A stretch of 46,755 nucleotides of DNA, taken from the NCBI GenBank assembly GCA_018895275.1, contig JAHIOQ010000156.1:1-46755 (forward strand), read 5' to 3'. This document shows, piece by piece, positions 1-13,448 of this stretch (positions are counted from its first letter, which is position 1; each line of letters starts with the position of its first letter). Under the pieces are notes generated by a model. It saw only the letters and a program-made list of their open reading frames with translations, ran no database searches and was not told the origin of the DNA. The DNA comes from Candidatus Omnitrophota bacterium. GTDB taxonomy: Bacteria; Omnitrophota; Gorgyraeia; B26-G9. The position numbers were made by a program, and so were the translations under genes.

Positions 1-24
1 CAGCTTTTCTGTTAACATCTATTT

Positions 25-96
25 GACCTCCATGGGTTTCACCCTTTGGGTGATGGTTACTGTTTTTGTTATATAACCATTGTACCATCGGAGGTC
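25..96 (-). promoter_or_regulatory. Candidate structured 5' leader (three-way junction) pairing with the Shine-Dalgarno of a gene that starts at 18 (minus) and leaves the window
   Basis: Minus strand: GACCTCC(96-90)/GGAGGTC(31-25) extended by ATGG/CCAT across one bulge; ATGGTTA(80-74)/TAACCAT(59-53); CACCC(52-48)/GGGTG(44-40). GGAGGT lies about 7 nt before ATG at 18-16. Confidence 0.5.
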
Positions 97-127
97 GTTC
101 TTTTTTACTCCTTTTTTTATTTTCTAT

Positions 128-476
128 TTAGGATTTAGGGTGTTTTAATTCTAGCTTATTTACCCCGTTAGAAAGCCTCTTTCTAACGGGGTTTACTTCC
201 CAGTCGCCGGTCAGGGTTATTTTATCGGTTACGCCGGTTTCTTTTTGGACATTGAACGTGAACCGGTTATATTCATCAGACTGCCATCTGCCGCCAAGTT
301 TTACGATATAGATGTGGTCATTCCCTAGGGTAGGTAACGTAGTTATCCTCGCCTATTTCAAATTTTCCGTCGAGAACAGCCCTAAATCCGGGCACTCTCG
401 ACTTCTTACCCGTTTTTTCATAAACAAGCCTGTTGCGTGGATCTATTTCGTATCTTATTTTTTCTGTTTTTTTCAT
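128..476 (-). pseudogene. Remnant of a small conserved protein, two halves in different frames
   Basis: Frame 1 (476-318) MKKTEKIRYEIDPRNRLVYEKTGKKSRVPGFRAVLDGKFEIGEDNYVTYPRE*; frame 2 (322-128) NDHIYIVKLGGRWQSDEYNRFTFNVQKETGVTDKITLTGDWEVNPVRKRLSNGVNKLELKHPKS*. Confidence 0.45.
162..192. repeat. Perfect 14-bp-stem palindrome with 3-nt loop
   Basis: ACCCCGTTAGAAAG-CCT-CTTTCTAACGGGGT. Confidence 0.8.
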
Positions 477-2440: not shown

Positions 2441-2881
2441 CTACACATCAAAAATCACCTCTGCCTGTAAAATATTATTTAGGGTTTTTATGTTCAGGTT
2501 ATGATAGGTCACGGCCTTTATCTCTGTTTTTCGTTTGTAGCCGGCGTTTAGTTCGTGCGCGGATAGGCGTGCTTTAAGCGAGCATTCGGTGAGTTGTTCG
2601 AGATGAAACGGAAAAAATATGATGTTATGTATATCGGAAAGTCTGAGCAGCTCGCTAAGCCAGCTTACCAGCAATTCTTCTCTGTTTGCCGCGCTTACCT
2701 CTACGGAAAAAGATCTCTCTTGAATGTCTCGCGGCTGCCTTTTTTTAGGGCAGGCGATAATAGAAAACATCCCTCTTGCCGCATTTACAAATAATTCGCT
2801 GCTGTCTTTTCCAAAGGCCCGTAATCCGATGTCCGCCGTGTGCTCAAACAGCTCATGCGATTTCCGCAATGTCCTCGCCAT
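2441..2881 (-). CDS. Archease family protein
   Basis: [31 protein letters not shown] ... [10 protein letters not shown] ... AEVIFDV; likely start at [12 protein letters not shown], overlapping the gyrA end. Confidence 0.85.
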
Positions 2882-5324
2882 TTTCGATTTCTTCGTCATC
2901 TTCTCTTGCCGCCAATCCGGCAACCGCAACGACCTTATCTTTGCTGTCTATACGCATCAACCGCACCCCTTGCGTAGACCGGCCGGTAGTGCGCACCTCT
3001 TTGATCGGGCAGCGCACGATCATGCCGCTGGAGGTTATGAGCATGAGCTCATCCGTATCCACAACCGCATTCAGCCCGACTACCAGGCCGTTGGTTGTTG
3101 TGGTCTTTATGTTGATAAGGCCCTTGCCGCCGCGGCGTTGCACCTTGTATTCGTCCATCCCGGTACGCTTGCCAAAGCCGTTCTCGGTTACGGCGAGCAA
3201 GGTCGCGTCTTTTCGCACAAGTTCCATGCCGATAACTTCATCTTTTTTCGCCAGGGAGATCCCGCGTACGCCGGATGCCGTTCTCCCCATGTCGCGCACG
3301 TCTTTTTCGCTGAAGCGAATTGCCTTGCCTTGTTTTGTCGCCAGGAATATTTCCTGCTCTCCGTCCGTCAGTTTACAACTTATCAGCTCATCTTTGTCGC
3401 GCATGGTGATTGCGCTGATGCCGCCTTTACGCGGCCGGCTGTACGACATAAGGTCTGTTTTCTTTATGACCCCGTTGCGCGTGGCCATCACCAGGAACCG
3501 CCCCTCTGTAAATTCCTTCACCTGTATCAGTGCGCTGACATTTTCTCCTTGCGCGATTTGTAAGATATTAACAATCGCCTTGCCCTTAGAGGCTCTTCCG
3601 CCCTGGGGAATCTCGTAGACCTTCAGCCAATAGACCTTTCCCTGGTCGGTAAACACCAGTAAATAATCGTGCGTGGAGGCAATGAATAAATGCTCAATAA
3701 AATCTTCTTCGCGCATTCCCGCTCCGGAAACACCTTTTCCGCCGCGGCGCTGCTTGCGATAGGCGCTCACCGGCAGCCGTTTTATATACCGGGCATGAGA
3801 AAGCGTGATCACCACGTCTTCGTCGGCGATGAGGTCTTCGATCTCAAAGTCGTCGATCTGGGCGATAATCTGCGTGCGGCGTTCGTCTCCGTATTTTTTG
3901 CGCAGCTCTTCAAGCTCCTCTTTAATAATCGCCAGTATTTTTTTCGGGTCAGCAAGAATGGCTTTTAAAATAGTTATTTTCTTTATCAGCTCCAGGTATT
4001 CGTTTTCTATTTTTTCCCGTTCCAGGGCGGTAAGCCGCTGCAGCTGCATCTCCAGAATCGCCTGCGCCTGGAACTCGCTCAGCCCGAATTTTTCCATCAG
4101 GGCCTGTTTTGCCTCCGGAGTGTTTTTTGACTCGCGGATGGTTTTAATCACCTTGTCCAGGTTATCCAGGCAGATTTTTAATCCTTCCAGTATATGCGCC
4201 CGCTCCTGCGCCTTGCGCAGTTCAAATTTTGTCCGGCGCGTGATAATTTCTTTGCGATGCTCAATAAAATAATACAATATCTGTTTCAGGTTCAATATCC
4301 GCGGCTGGTTATCGACAAGCGCCAAAAAGATGATCCCGAACGTTGTTTCCAGCTGCGTATGCTTATAAAGCAGGTTTAAAATTACCTGCGCAACCGCGTC
4401 GCGCTTAAGCTCGATGACCATGCGCATGCCGTCTTTGTCCGATTCATCGCGAATGTCGGAAATTCCTTCGATTTTTTTCTGCTGCACCAGTCCGGCGATT
4501 ACCCCGATCACGTTCGCCTTATTTACCTGATAAGGAATTTCCGTGATAACAATCGATTCCTTGCCGCTTTTCTGTGTTTCGATAACCGCCTTTGCCCGGA
4601 TTTTAATCGGCGACCTGCCGGTCTCATAGGCTTTTTTAATCCCCTCGCGGCCGCAGATAATACCGGCCGTGGGAAAATCCGGGCCTTGAATCTTTTTCAT
4701 TAAATCTTTTATTTGCGCGTCCGGATTGTCGATAAGATAAATTAACGCGTCGATAACTTCGGTTACGTTGTGCGGCGGGATGTTTGTCGCCATACCCACG
4801 GCAATTCCGCTGGAGCCGTTGATCATGAGGTTCGGCAGCGCCGCCGGCAAAACCGTCGGTTCTTCCAGAGACTCGTCAAAATTAGGGACAAAATCAACCG
4901 TTTCTTTTTCAATGTCAATAAGTAATTCGCGGGTAATTGCCGCCATACGCGCTTCCGTATAACGCATCGCCGCCGGGGAGTCCCCGTCCACCGAGCCGAA
5001 ATTGCCCTGCCCGTCGACCAGCGGGTAGCGCAAGGAAAAACTCTGCACCATTCTGACTAAAGAATCGTAAACCGCCACATCGCCGTGCGGATGGTATTTA
5101 CCAAGCACTTCTCCGACGATACGCGCGCTTTTTTTGTACGGCTTATTATGCTCAAGGCTCAATTCTTTCATGGCGTAGAGAATACGCCGGTGCACCGGCT
5201 TAAGCCCGTCGCGGATATCCGGCAGCGCGCGCCCGACAATAACGCTCATCGCGTAGTCGATATAAGACTTTTTCATTTCCGCTTCGATAGGTACGGCTAC
5301 AATTCTTTCGTTTTGTGCATACAT
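2853..5324 (-). CDS. gyrA: DNA gyrase subunit A
   Basis: [33 protein letters not shown]; GyrA-box QRRGGKG. Confidence 0.98.
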
Positions 5325-5355
5325 GGGATATTCTCACTCCTGTTTTTTCTTTAAA

Positions 5356-7884
<2,529 letters not shown>

Positions 7885-7925
7885 TTATATATTTTTCCAT
7901 CCGCGCTGCGAATTAACTCTTTTAA

Positions 7926-8237
7926 TTATTGATAAACATCCGGGCTTCCTATTTTAAATCTTAGCTCGTCTATTTTTGTTTCGCCGAGAAAATGGTTGAT
8001 TTTTTTTAAAATCTTTTTCTTTTCTGTTGTCAGATGGTGCAGCCACGCCGAATTGGAAACAACAACCGTCAGCGTGTTATTTTTAATCGCTGCCGGCGCA
8101 GTATATTGTGCCGCCTGAGCCGGCATAATCTCTTTCCAGGAATCAATAATTATTGCCTGCCGGGATTTTTTTTGATGCTCATGTTTTTCCAGAATTCCTT
8201 CAATGATTTTTGCAATCGGTACTATTTTTCTGTCCAT
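7926..8237 (-). CDS. dciA: DUF721/DciA family protein (candidate replicative helicase loader)
   Basis: Small protein between dnaN and gyrB; SWKEIMPAQAAQYTAPAAIKNNTLTVVVSNSAWLHHLTTEKKKILKKIN. Confidence 0.8.
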   Translation of the reverse strand: MDRKIVPIAKIIEGILEKHEHQKKSRQAIIIDSWKEIMPAQAAQYTAPAAIKNNTLTVVVSNSAWLHHLTTEKKKILKKINHFLGETKIDELRFKIGSPDVYQ

Positions 8238-8240
8238 TTT

Positions 8241-9362
8241 TTATACCAGCTGCATCGGTAACACGATATAAACATACATCCCGTTTTCTTCAGTTAGTAC
8301 CTCTCTAAATACACCGGGTTTTTCCGCGTCATTTAGTTCAAAATCTACGGTTTCATTTTGCAGGTTTTTCAACACATCCATTAAAAAAGCCGGGTTAAAA
8401 CCGACGGTTAATTCGTTTCCTTTGTAGTCCATCGTAATCTCTTCTTTAACTTCTCCGATATCCGGAGTCATCTTTGAAATCACAAGTTTATTTTTAAATA
8501 CATCCAGTTTTATCGACTGCGAATCCTGACTGGTAAATAAACTCGCTCTTTTTATCGCGGAAAGCAGCCGGTCTTTTTCAATATGAATTTTTTCCTGTTT
8601 TTCTTTTTGTTTTTCTTTCGGAATTATCTGCTCATAACTAGGAAATTCTCCTTCAATAAGGCGTGATACGATCGTTGTTGTTCCGTCTAATTCAAAAGCA
8701 ATTTGATTATCGGAAAATATTATCTTTACCTGGCCTTCATCTTTTAAAATCTTATTCAACTCATTGATTGTTTTTATCGGAATAATCACCTCTTTTTTAT
8801 TAATCTCCAGAGGCAGCGCGCTTTCAATTAAGGCCAGCCTTCTTCCATCGGTAGCCACAAGGCGCAATATTTTATTTTTCAGCATGAATAATGTCCCGTT
8901 TAATACATAGCGGGTTTCGTCCCGGGACATCGCGAAGCTCACTTTTTTTAAAAGTTTTTTTAATACCGCCTGCGGAAGTATAATATTTTCTTTATTGTTA
9001 AATTTAGGAATCGTCGGAAATTCCTCTTTCGGTAACCCGATTAAACGAAATGAGCATGAATCACAATCGATTATCATATTAAAGTTTTTTCTTACGGTTA
9101 TGGTTATTTCTCCTTCCGGAAGCTCTCGGACAATATCGGCAAATCTTTTTGCCGGAACAGTGATGTTTCCTTCTTCAATTACTTCCGCTTTTGCACAATA
9201 AATAATTCCAATATCAAGATCCGTAGTATTAAATAATATTTTATCTTTCGAAGCTTCGATTAATACATTTGATAAAATAGGTAGTGTTGTTTTTGTTGCC
9301 ACAGCGCCTTCTACGGTTTGAATCGCGCTGGTAAGAACGCTTTTGGAAACCTTAAATTTCAT
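8241..9362 (-). CDS. dnaN: DNA polymerase III beta subunit (sliding clamp)
   Basis: MKFKVSKSVLTSAIQTVEGAVATKTTLPILSNVLIEA; C-terminal YIVLPMQLV. Confidence 0.97.
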   Translation of the reverse strand: MKFKVSKSVLTSAIQTVEGAVATKTTLPILSNVLIEASKDKILFNTTDLDIGIIYCAKAEVIEEGNITVPAKRFADIVRELPEGEITITVRKNFNMIIDCDSCSFRLIGLPKEEFPTIPKFNNKENIILPQAVLKKLLKKVSFAMSRDETRYVLNGTLFMLKNKILRLVATDGRRLALIESALPLEINKKEVIIPIKTINELNKILKDEGQVKIIFSDNQIAFELDGTTTIVSRLIEGEFPSYEQIIPKEKQKEKQEKIHIEKDRLLSAIKRASLFTSQDSQSIKLDVFKNKLVISKMTPDIGEVKEEITMDYKGNELTVGFNPAFLMDVLKNLQNETVDFELNDAEKPGVFREVLTEENGMYVYIVLPMQLV

Positions 9363-9456
9363 TTTATCCCCCTTTTTATCAACAAGTTATTCTATATACT
9401 ATGTATTATTTTTTTATATAAAGATAGTAGTTGTAATAGTAGTGCAGCATCTTTTT

Positions 9457-9465
9457 TGTGGATAA
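9457..9465 (-). promoter_or_regulatory. DnaA box TTATCCACA in the dnaA-dnaN gap
   Basis: tgtggataa on + strand; variant TTATCAACA nearby at 9376-9384. Confidence 0.6.
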
Positions 9466-9493
9466 CCCCTTTAACCCCTTTTTTTACAAAAGG

Positions 9494-10852
9494 TTATTTT
9501 GTTTCTATTTTGTTAATAAGTGATGTTAATAAATCTTTTACTTTTGTATTAATTTTTGATAACTTCCGTATTTTTTCATACGCGTGTAAAACCGTAGTAT
9601 GGTCCCGTCCGCCGAAATATTCGCCGATTTCCGAAAGAGAGTGATTTGTTAGCTCTCTCGCCAAAAACATGGCGATTTGGCGCGGATAAGAGATAATCTT
9701 TTTTCTCCCCTCCTTTTTTATATCAGAGATTCTAATATCAAAATTTTCAGCAATAACCTTCTGAATGCAGTCAATAGTGATGATTTGCGTATGCGCGTCT
9801 TCTTTTATTGCGTCCTTTAAAACCTCTTCGGCAACCGCGATTGAAATTTGATTATTTGTTAATAAAGAATAGGCAACAACCCTAATAAGCGACCCCTCCA
9901 GCTCTCTGATATTTGAATGAATTTTTTCGGCGATAAAAAACATTACGTCATCCGGCACCTTTACAATTTCCCGCTCCGCTTTTTTACGCAAAATAGCAAT
10001 GCGTGTTTCCAGGTCAGGCGGTTGAATATCCGTAACCAGCCCCCATTCAAAACGGGAAATCAGGCGCTCTTCGAGTCCGGGAATATCTTTCGGCGAACGG
10101 TCGCTGGAGAGAATAATCTGTTTATGCGCATCATAAAGGGTGTTGAACGTGTGGAAAAATTCTTCCTGAGTGCTTTCCTTTCCGGCGATAAATTGGATAT
10201 CATCAATTAATAAAATATCTACATTGCGGTATTTTTCGCGGAAACGCATCGTGGTTCTCGTCTGAATAGCATTGATCAGCTGGTTCGTAAATCGCTCACT
10301 GGTAGTATATGATAATTTTGCTCCGGGGGTTTTCTCTAAAATAAAATGCCCGACCGCCTGCATAAGGTGCGTTTTCCCTAACCCCACCCCGCCGTATATA
10401 AATAAAGGATTATAAGCGCGTGCCGGGGATTCGGCAACCGCGGAGCTTGCAGCATGTGCGAACCTATTGCTGGGCCCGACGACAAAACTATCAAAGGTAT
10501 ATTTAGGATTTAAATAAACATCCGGTTTGTGGCGTGGCTCGGAGGGCGTTTTTTCTCTGGAGATGCCGGCAATTATTTTTTCCGCGATCTGAGAAGCCTG
10601 CGTTGTTCCGACGATAAAATCAATGCGCAGCTGCGAAGAGGCAATACGGGTAAGCGTTTCGCAAAGCATCTCATAATAATGATCCAACAGCCATTCCTTA
10701 AAAAATTTATTTGGTACCTCGACGTTGATTTGCTCGTCGGAAAGCATGACCGCCCTTGTCGGCTTCAGCCAGGTTTCAAAACTTTGCGCGGGAATCTCCT
10801 GTTTAAGAACAGACAGAACTTCGGACCATAGTTGTACAGCATTATTGTGCAT
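9494..10852 (-). CDS. dnaA: Chromosomal replication initiator DnaA
   Basis: NPLFIYGGVGLGKTHLMQAVGH; C-terminal GGRDHTTVLHAYEKI. Confidence 0.98.
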   Translation of the reverse strand: MHNNAVQLWSEVLSVLKQEIPAQSFETWLKPTRAVMLSDEQINVEVPNKFFKEWLLDHYYEMLCETLTRIASSQLRIDFIVGTTQASQIAEKIIAGISREKTPSEPRHKPDVYLNPKYTFDSFVVGPSNRFAHAASSAVAESPARAYNPLFIYGGVGLGKTHLMQAVGHFILEKTPGAKLSYTTSERFTNQLINAIQTRTTMRFREKYRNVDILLIDDIQFIAGKESTQEEFFHTFNTLYDAHKQIILSSDRSPKDIPGLEERLISRFEWGLVTDIQPPDLETRIAILRKKAEREIVKVPDDVMFFIAEKIHSNIRELEGSLIRVVAYSLLTNNQISIAVAEEVLKDAIKEDAHTQIITIDCIQKVIAENFDIRISDIKKEGRKKIISYPRQIAMFLARELTNHSLSEIGEYFGGRDHTTVLHAYEKIRKLSKINTKVKDLLTSLINKIETK

Positions 10853-11054
10853 AGCGGTAAGTATAAGGCCTTTATTTATTAACAGACATGAATTAAAAAA
10901 ACACTATTGTATCTTCTTTGTTTTTAAATAGTTATAATTTTGTTTCCTAAAACAATCCACATGTTATCCACAGCACGAATATTCCCGGAATAACTACTAA
11001 AAAATTATTATAACAGAAAGAAGGACAAATTCAAGAGTTTTTTTGAGTTTTTTG
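10853..11054. other. oriC: Candidate chromosomal replication origin (oriC)
   Basis: Very AT-rich gap between divergent dnaA and rpmH; consensus DnaA box TTATCCACA at 10964-10972; genes on both sides point away. Confidence 0.65.
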
Positions 11055-11082
11055 TTGACTAAAATAACAGTTGTGCTATAAT
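11055..11082 (+). promoter_or_regulatory. sigma70-like promoter for rpmH
   Basis: TTGACT (11055-11060), 16-nt spacer, TATAAT (11077-11082). Confidence 0.75.
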
Positions 11083-11121
11083 TTTTAGATATAAAAAATA
11101 ATAAGGAAAGAGGGATGCCGG

Positions 11122-11259
11122 ATGAAGAAAACTCTAAAGCCAAAATCAAACCTGAAAAGAAAAAAAACACACGGGTTTCGCGAGAGAATGAAGTCGAAAG
11201 ACGGGCGCGCAATATTGAAGCGTAGACGGCAAAAGGGACGCAAAAAACTTACCGTCTAA
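11122..11259 (+). CDS. rpmH: 50S ribosomal protein L34 (not in the supplied ORF track)
   Basis: [45 protein letters not shown]. Confidence 0.95.
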
Positions 11260-11260
11260 A

Positions 11261-11593
11261 ATGAAGCAGTGCGGCCTATCAAAGAAAGAGCGCCTGTTAC
11301 GGCCTTTCCAATATAAAAATGTATATCGATACTGTTTGCGAAAAAAGGGCAGGCAGGTGTGGGTATACACCATGCCAAACGGCTTAATGCACAACCGAAT
11401 TGGTATTAGCGTAAGCAAAAAGACCTGCACCAACAATGTTAACCGCAACCGGGTGAAGCGGATTATCCGGCAGGTTTTTCAACGGAATAAGGATATCTTT
11501 GGAGAGGGGAAAGATATTGTTTTTGTGTTAAAAGAAATGCCGGAAACAGCTAGTTATGACTTTTTTAAAGAGGCGATATTGAAACTTTTCTAA
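11261..11593 (+). CDS. rnpA: Ribonuclease P protein component
   Basis: Follows rpmH; NRIGISVSKKTCTNNVNRNRVKRIIRQVFQ. Confidence 0.92.
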   Translation: MKQCGLSKKERLLRPFQYKNVYRYCLRKKGRQVWVYTMPNGLMHNRIGISVSKKTCTNNVNRNRVKRIIRQVFQRNKDIFGEGKDIVFVLKEMPETASYDFFKEAILKLF

Positions 11594-11602
11594 AAAGCTG
11601 AG

Positions 11603-11833
11603 ATGAAAAAAACGGTCTTATTTTTAATTGATTTTTATCGCAACTATTTATCAGGATTAATGTTAAAGTCTTGCAGGTTTTATCCCAGCTGCTCGGTGTA
11701 TGCCAAAGAGGCAGTGAAAAAAAAGGGTGTTTTAAAAGGAATTTTGCTTGGTTCATGGCGAATCCTAAGATGTAACCCTCTGTCCCGCGGCGGATACGAC
11801 CCTGTAGATAAGGTGCGCAATAATGAAAAATGA
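11603..11833 (+). CDS. yidD: Membrane protein insertion efficiency factor YidD
   Basis: [45 protein letters not shown]. Confidence 0.95.
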
Positions 11834-13448
11834 AAAGAATTTTCTTTTAGCCGTAATTATTACAGTAGTTGTATTGTATTTTTACCCACTGCTTATAAAG
11901 CAGTTTTTTCCGCAGTTTTTTACTCCCCCTGAGGAAATCCAAATAAAAGGCCCAGGCAGTACGGTTGGTAGGCCACAAACAGAAACCGCGTTTCAATCGG
12001 GCCCAAAAGAATACGCTAATCCTGTAACAACTGCCCCTGTAAAAACTTACACGATAGAAAATGACCTTTATCGCGTTGTTATCGCTAGTCCGGAGGCTGA
12101 TATAAAACGCATAGAGCTTAAGAAGATAACTGACCCCGGAACACAGCTGCCGACGGTTTTGGTTGATGTTGGGACTCAGGGAAGGGGAATTTTTTATCAA
12201 GAAGGGCTGTTGCTAGATTCCGTTTTGGAGGGCATCGAAGAAAGCAATACGGCCGTAGAATTCATCTATAGTAAAGGCAATAAGTTAACAATAATAAAAC
12301 GGATCGAGCTTGATGCCCGGATGTATAAAATAAGCCTGATAACGGAATTTAAAAATGCATCGGACAAAGAGATTTTTACAGGGTATTCCTTTGTTGCCGC
12401 AACCGGCCTTAATGAGGTTAGCGGTATAGAAGACAGGTTTAGAGACGCGATGGCCATGTTCAAAAACGGCAAAATGTACAAGAAAAACATAAACAGCCTG
12501 GAGTCGTTGCGAAAGATAGAGGGAGACATACATTTTGCCGGCTTTAAGACAAGATATTTTTCGCTTGTTGCGACTCCGCTAAACGGCGCTGACTATTTTT
12601 ATACCCAAAAAGCCGCGCCAGGCTCTCCCGGCGCAAAGGCGAACGTGGGAATAGGTTGCAAGCAACTTGCTATTATGCCGCAACAGACCGTTCGCCAAGA
12701 GGTTGTGCTTTATGCCGGCCCTACGGATTATGAGACGATGTCCGGCCTTAACCTGGGAATAGAGGCGATTCGCGGAAAAGGGTTTTTTGCCGGAATTTCC
12801 GAAATGCTGCTTATGCTGCTAAGGTTCCTATATAAGCTCTTAAATAATTACGGATTAGCCGTTGTTGTGCTTGCGATTATAATTAACCTCTTTTTGGCGC
12901 CGTTAACGATCAAAAGCCTTGTGTCCATGAAGGAGATGCAGTCCCTGCAACCGCTGGTGGAACAGCTTCGCAATGAACACAAGGACAATCCGCAAAAGCT
13001 AAACAAAGAAATAATGGGATTATATAAGAAGCATAAGGTCAATCCGGCAGGAGGGTGCTTGCCGATGCTTTTGCAGATGCCGATCTTTTTTTCCTTGTAT
13101 AATGTGTTAATGCGGGCCATTGAATTAAGGGGCGCAAGCTTTTTGTGGATAAAAAACCTGGCGGCGCCGGATGCATTTATAAACTTACCGGGAGAATATC
13201 CGCTGATAGGAAGTTCTATAAATATTTTACCGATAATAATGATTGCAGTGTCGTTTTTTCAGCAGAAGCTTACAAATCCAGCGCAGGCAAATGATCAGCA
13301 AAAGGCAATGGCCTTTTTAATGCCGTTTTTTCTCGGATTTATTTTTTATAATTTTCCTTCGGGACTAGCGCTGTATTTTCTAACCAACTCTATTTTTTCT
13401 TTTGCAATACAACTTGGTATTAGCAAAAAGGCCAAGGTGTGCTCCTAA
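11823..13448 (+). CDS. yidC: Membrane protein insertase YidC
   Basis: [48 protein letters not shown]. Confidence 0.96.

Follow-up and report, generated by a model that had tools for sequence, protein, structure and literature searches.

What does a folded RNA leader at the extreme end of a bacterial contig control, when the gene behind it leaves the assembly after six codons? The question is raised by the left edge of contig JAHIOQ010000156.1 of a Candidatus Omnitrophota bacterium, of which the whole stretch of 46,755 nucleotides was analysed (hereafter the window). On the minus strand, the segment at window positions 25-96 is predicted to fold into a three-way junction, the closing stem of which buries the Shine-Dalgarno (SD) sequence of an ATG codon at 18-16. 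The arrangement had been taken in a preliminary description, made from the letters of the window, for a possible translational riboswitch or autoregulatory leader of a class that its author did not recognise.

The MFE fold reproduced the 11-bp closing stem just as it had been described. Its 5' arm (85-96, minus strand) is an anti-SD sequence composed of GACCTCC (96-90), a bulged G at 89 and ATGG (88-85), and is conserved or compensated in 18 elements (see below). The 3' arm, CCATGGAGGTC (25-35), consists of CCAT (35-32) and GGAGGTC (31-25), and carries the SD sequence GGAGG at 31-27, separated by 8 nt from the ATG. Within the junction stand two hairpins, hairpin A (54-79; TGGTTAT at 79-73 paired with GTAACCA at 60-54), with 7 bp and an A-rich loop of 12 nt, and hairpin B (39-53; TCACCC at 53-48 paired with GGGTGA at 44-39), with 6 bp and an AAA loop; both loops and the first stem had been given correctly, and the second stem is to be corrected from 5 bp to 6 bp. 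The predicted free energy of -30.0 kcal/mol was compared with that of 200 dinucleotide shuffles (-14.95 ± 2.8), none of which was as stable (z = -5.38), in support of the proposed SD-containing stem around a multi-helix junction. The leader carries no U-tract, the paired element being the SD sequence itself. A scan of the whole window against Rfam gave two tRNAs only and no match for the leader at the gathering threshold, in agreement with the earlier failure to recognise a known class.

Elsewhere in the window, at 2853-13448, gyrA-like, gyrB-like, dnaN-like and dnaA-like genes form a minus-strand row, after which rnpA-like and yidC-like genes stand on the opposite, plus strand. This gene row, read from ORF translations alone, suggests a replication-origin region near position 11000.

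The insertion sequence that carries the leader

The first 110 bases of the window were found in four occurrences in its own genome, each at a contig end. These four copies are identical inward from CCCTAAATCC (window 140), and their outward flanks are unrelated. This comparison marks the sequence from window 140 inward as the left end of a mobile element, where contig assembly stops, with position 140 as the first base of the element and CCCTAAATCCTAAATAGAAA (121-140, minus strand) as the left terminal inverted repeat. Five other contigs of the same genome end in the inverted copy of CCCTAAATCCTAAATAGAAA followed by one common interior sequence, and represent the right ends; the inverted repeat is 20 bp long and perfect between the left and right ends in this genome. 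The multi-copy nature of this repeat explains the break of the contig at the start of the window. Sequences related to the left end were identified in further genomes of the same family, where they too lie mostly at contig ends, and an exact DNA pattern scan gave one further match, at a contig end of a Candidatus Omnitrophota MAG; the same kind of scan gave no match among viral contigs. The flanking DNA contains, about 22 bp beyond the left end of the element, a perfect 13-bp hairpin, CCCCGTTAGAAAG-AGG-CTTTCTAACGGGG (window 163-191, minus strand), with no clear T-run.

The open reading frame that starts behind the leader (1-18, minus strand) leaves the contig after MLTEKL, six codons that fit the pattern of its homologues. 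A homologous left end (G002:C55) continues for 89 codons (MIAKKLHRVTLKKEWEPT...), which match the N-terminus of IS1380 transposases (NF033539, E = 1.2e-5). Using this fragment as the query for a phylum-wide transposase search, we obtained complete relatives, including L038 (1612 nt) and L040 (1622 nt), two contigs each spanned from end to end by one insertion sequence (IS) unit. The transposase of L038 (432 aa) scored 212 bits against NF033539 (cut-off, 180) and 100 bits against Pfam PF13701 (DDE_Tnp_1_4). On the right side, contig G005:C40 carries the C-terminus of a transposase (60% identity over 40 aa) and, behind it, a right end very similar to those of the window's genome, so that this right end is tied to the same IS1380 family. 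Terminal inverted repeats and a unit of about 1.6-1.7 kb, as expected of IS1380 elements, were thus found in the ends from the window's genome together with L038 and L040. A search of the window's genome with the PF13701 profile and with the full transposase found nothing, because the body of the element is not assembled there. Judging from the homologous left and right ends, the gene in the window, of which six own codons are assembled, is that of an IS1380-family transposase.

An IS200/IS605-type single-strand transposon, suggested by the hairpins, was rejected, since inverted repeats form the ends of the element and its transposase belongs to the DDE type. In three complete or decayed copies (L047, L048 and L051), no 4-bp flank match was obvious by eye, the exact termini being uncertain and the copies possibly rearranged. 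A decayed internal remnant of the same IS was also noticed (L029:1300-1500, in G002:C79), which has lost its leader from between left end and transposase and contains stop codons.

These data bear directly on the reading in which a cellular gene is controlled by a riboswitch or an autoregulatory leader. The layout, an SD-containing closing stem around a multi-helix junction, speaks for that reading, and as a description of the structure it stands; the leader is, however, multi-copy, lies inside an IS ahead of transposases, and belongs to no Rfam class. Unless some leader of this kind proves to precede a gene other than a transposase, this context refutes the cellular-gene reading, which we regard as scarcely credible.

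Conservation and covariation of the leader

An alignment of twelve leaders (A1) was prepared and a covariance model (R1) was built. R1 finds the leader in 15 of 386 genomes of the phylum Omnitrophota, including all 8 genomes with a close transposase relative, together with several that took no part in model building (G159, G236, G239, G316 and G321). In most cases where the sequence exists, a transposase start lies downstream. Individual folding of the distinct full leaders gave an SD-covering closing stem and two inner hairpins in 18 out of 18, even though the MFE fold weakens one inner hairpin in a few of them.

The pairings are kept through compensatory changes ahead of a single gene family, which was the key test put forward for the leader in the preliminary description, and the closing stem gives the clearest case: GACCTCC/GGAGGTC in the window is replaced by GCCCCTGTTGTT/AACAACAGGAGC in G159 (with one mismatch) and by ACTCCTTGTTTT/AAAACAAGGAGT in G239. 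In a second alignment (A2), 91.8% of the cells were paired, compared with 35-46% after sliding of one arm. In A2, the sequences of which are related to one another, 13 double-changed cells were counted, as compared with 3.7 for shuffles (0 of 500). Double changes were found for 5 of the 7 closing-stem pairs. The inner hairpins behave differently from each other. A hairpin is formed at the position of hairpin A in each of the 18 elements, with shifting register and widely varying sequence, and fixed-column counting on A2 detected no covariation there. For hairpin B, A2 gave no evidence of covariation because its sequence is nearly invariant. The covariation term of RNAalifold on A1 was nearly nil (0.08), since hairpin A is misregistered by MAFFT and A1 still lacked the more variable leaders. 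The comparison as a whole supports a structured RNA in the leader, one that is absent from Rfam.

The same data allow us to weigh the proposal that the repeats act as DNA, the palindromes serving the transposase as subterminal binding sites, with the RNA fold as a by-product. Hairpin B is indeed a nearly invariant palindrome at a fixed distance of about 76-88 bp from the left terminus in the Omnitrophota elements, and ISEcp1, an IS1380-family element well known as the mobiliser of blaCTX-M genes, has the same palindrome, TCACCC-N3-GGGTGA (TTTCACCCATTGGGTGAAA; L082:460-478, E. coli plasmid NZ_LT985276.1), at 77 bp from its left end, the transposases being about 22% identical. Against the proposal, the 3' arm of the closing stem is always at the SD sequence, the arms covary as the sequence changes, the structure tolerates G-U pairs, and in 14 of the 18 leaders the more stable fold is that of the sense strand. 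As an account of the entire leader it is very unlikely, and a role as a DNA site may be confined to hairpin B alone. A similar palindrome, CACCC-TGC-GGGTG, was noticed upstream of a Cupriavidus transposase (L087:302).

A promoter-like box between the arms

Between the 5' arm of the closing stem and hairpin A, which overlaps its final T, lies the sequence TACAAT (79-84, minus strand), preceded in the window by TG at 87-86. The motif TANAAT is invariant in all of the 20 leaders compared, with a G two bases upstream in 19 of them, and it is unchanged whether it is largely paired (L040, L047 and L049) or unpaired (the window, L023 and L038). Such invariance regardless of pairing argues for a role at the level of DNA, of which the simplest would be that of a promoter -10 box, extended (TGn) in many elements. 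For this putative leader promoter no -35 box was recognised, and neither was a better promoter upstream on the same strand. Transcription would start about six bases below the box, near window position 72, and a start at this point would remove the 5' arms of both the closing stem and hairpin A. The predicted pairing of the SD sequence ranged from 0.83 to 1.0 in read-through RNA against 0.07 to 0.65 in RNA from the predicted start, some elements thus keeping partial pairing (up to 0.65) in the latter. That the SD sequence is freed follows trivially from the removal of the arm; what is informative is that the box invariably lies between the two arms.

The likely -10 box inside the structure, the transposase gene behind it and its location within one end of a mobile element together point to a passive protection from read-through transcription, at the expense of the riboswitch or autoregulatory interpretation proposed earlier. 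In this model, RNA entering from a neighbouring gene would hold both arms of the closing stem, form the three-way junction and hide the SD sequence of the transposase. The promoter of the element itself, with its -10 box just inside the 5' arm, would direct a start beyond that arm, at about window position 72; without the 5' arm the lock could not form in this RNA, and the transposase would be translatable. We consider it probable that the leader of this IS1380-family transposase acts in such a way, as a cis-encoded lock against read-through transcription.

The principal competing explanation is that the native transcript also carries the lock, having started upstream of the 5' arm, and that the junction is a regulated switch to be opened by some factor, for example a host protein, a small RNA or the transposase. 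In its favour, the structure is more elaborate than a simple lock would require, and hairpin B, nearly invariant and found again as a palindrome in ISEcp1, looks as a protein-binding site is expected to look. This explanation is opposed by the invariant TANAAT inside the lock, by the lack of any better same-strand promoter recognised upstream, and by the free change of hairpin A in sequence and register; we judge it unlikely. It is similarly improbable that the junction serves as a switch through hairpin B, bound as RNA or DNA by the transposase or a host factor, and so makes translation of the transposase depend on copy number or on the context of insertion. Alongside the lock, hairpin B may have another role, separate and older, and, being common to ISEcp1, is perhaps ancestral to the IS1380 family.

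Other IS1380 members and known self-protection systems

Locks of an analogous kind but of different build, with a -10-like box inside, are predicted for IS1678 and ISSsu5 from Enterococcus plasmids (z = -4.75 and -4.38), and for three further subgroups of Omnitrophota elements, L090, L091 and L092 (z = -4.8, -3.1 and -4.5). The transposases of IS1678, ISSsu5 and ISEcp1 are only about 21-22% identical to those of the Omnitrophota elements. IS1678 and ISSsu5 share with the Omnitrophota element the IS1380 transposase and the SD lock, in their case around TGCTATGGT, but their locks are without hairpin B. Conversely, ISEcp1 shares the transposase family and TCACCC-N3-GGGTGA, but no clear lock was found in its leader, nor in the leaders of L095-L097. 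For actinobacterial members of the family the folds are suggestive of a lock (z = -3.8 and -2.4), and the leaders of the Streptomyces and Cupriavidus members gave no convincing SD lock. For ISPme1, another IS1380 element, the transposase promoter is reported to be much weaker than the outward promoter (PMC9330008). A literature search in a limited collection found no paper on IS1380 in combination with RBS or secondary structure, or with hairpin or promoter.

In IS10 and IS50, an inverted repeat at the outer end hides the transposase SD sequence in read-through mRNA only, the native transcript beginning inside that repeat. The protection of Tn10/IS10, and of IS50, from external promoters (Davis, Simons and Kleckner 1985, cited in PMC2965389) is the closest precedent. 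In the Omnitrophota element, too, the SD sequence is predicted to be hidden solely in read-through mRNA, and the arrangement of the IS10/IS50 type, the 3' arm of an inverted repeat lying over the transposase SD sequence, was found in 18 of the 18 distinct full leaders. The present lock differs from that of Tn10/IS10 in being built as a three-way junction around a pair of inner hairpins, in belonging to an IS1380 element of Omnitrophota, and in having its covariation documented across many elements. An RNA secondary structure at the left end is also described to repress transposase translation in IS200 (Beuzon et al. 1999, cited in PMC2965389), much as the left-end structure would do here; IS200 is, however, a Y1 single-strand transposon with another structure, and antisense RNA and Hfq also act on it. 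The 'mobile attenuators', 5' terminators of IS elements that limit expression after insertion in a transcribed region (PMC2965389), would resemble the present leader in curbing expression within transcribed DNA from the 5' part of an IS; they are intrinsic terminators, whereas here the U-tract is absent and the SD sequence is paired instead.

The novelty of the leader is that of a variant of a known IS self-protection device, and not of a new riboregulator of a cellular gene. What looks like a riboswitch where a contig stops can prove to be the outer end of a repeat, and the IS1380 family gains a specific and testable model for the silence of its transposase after insertion into transcribed DNA.
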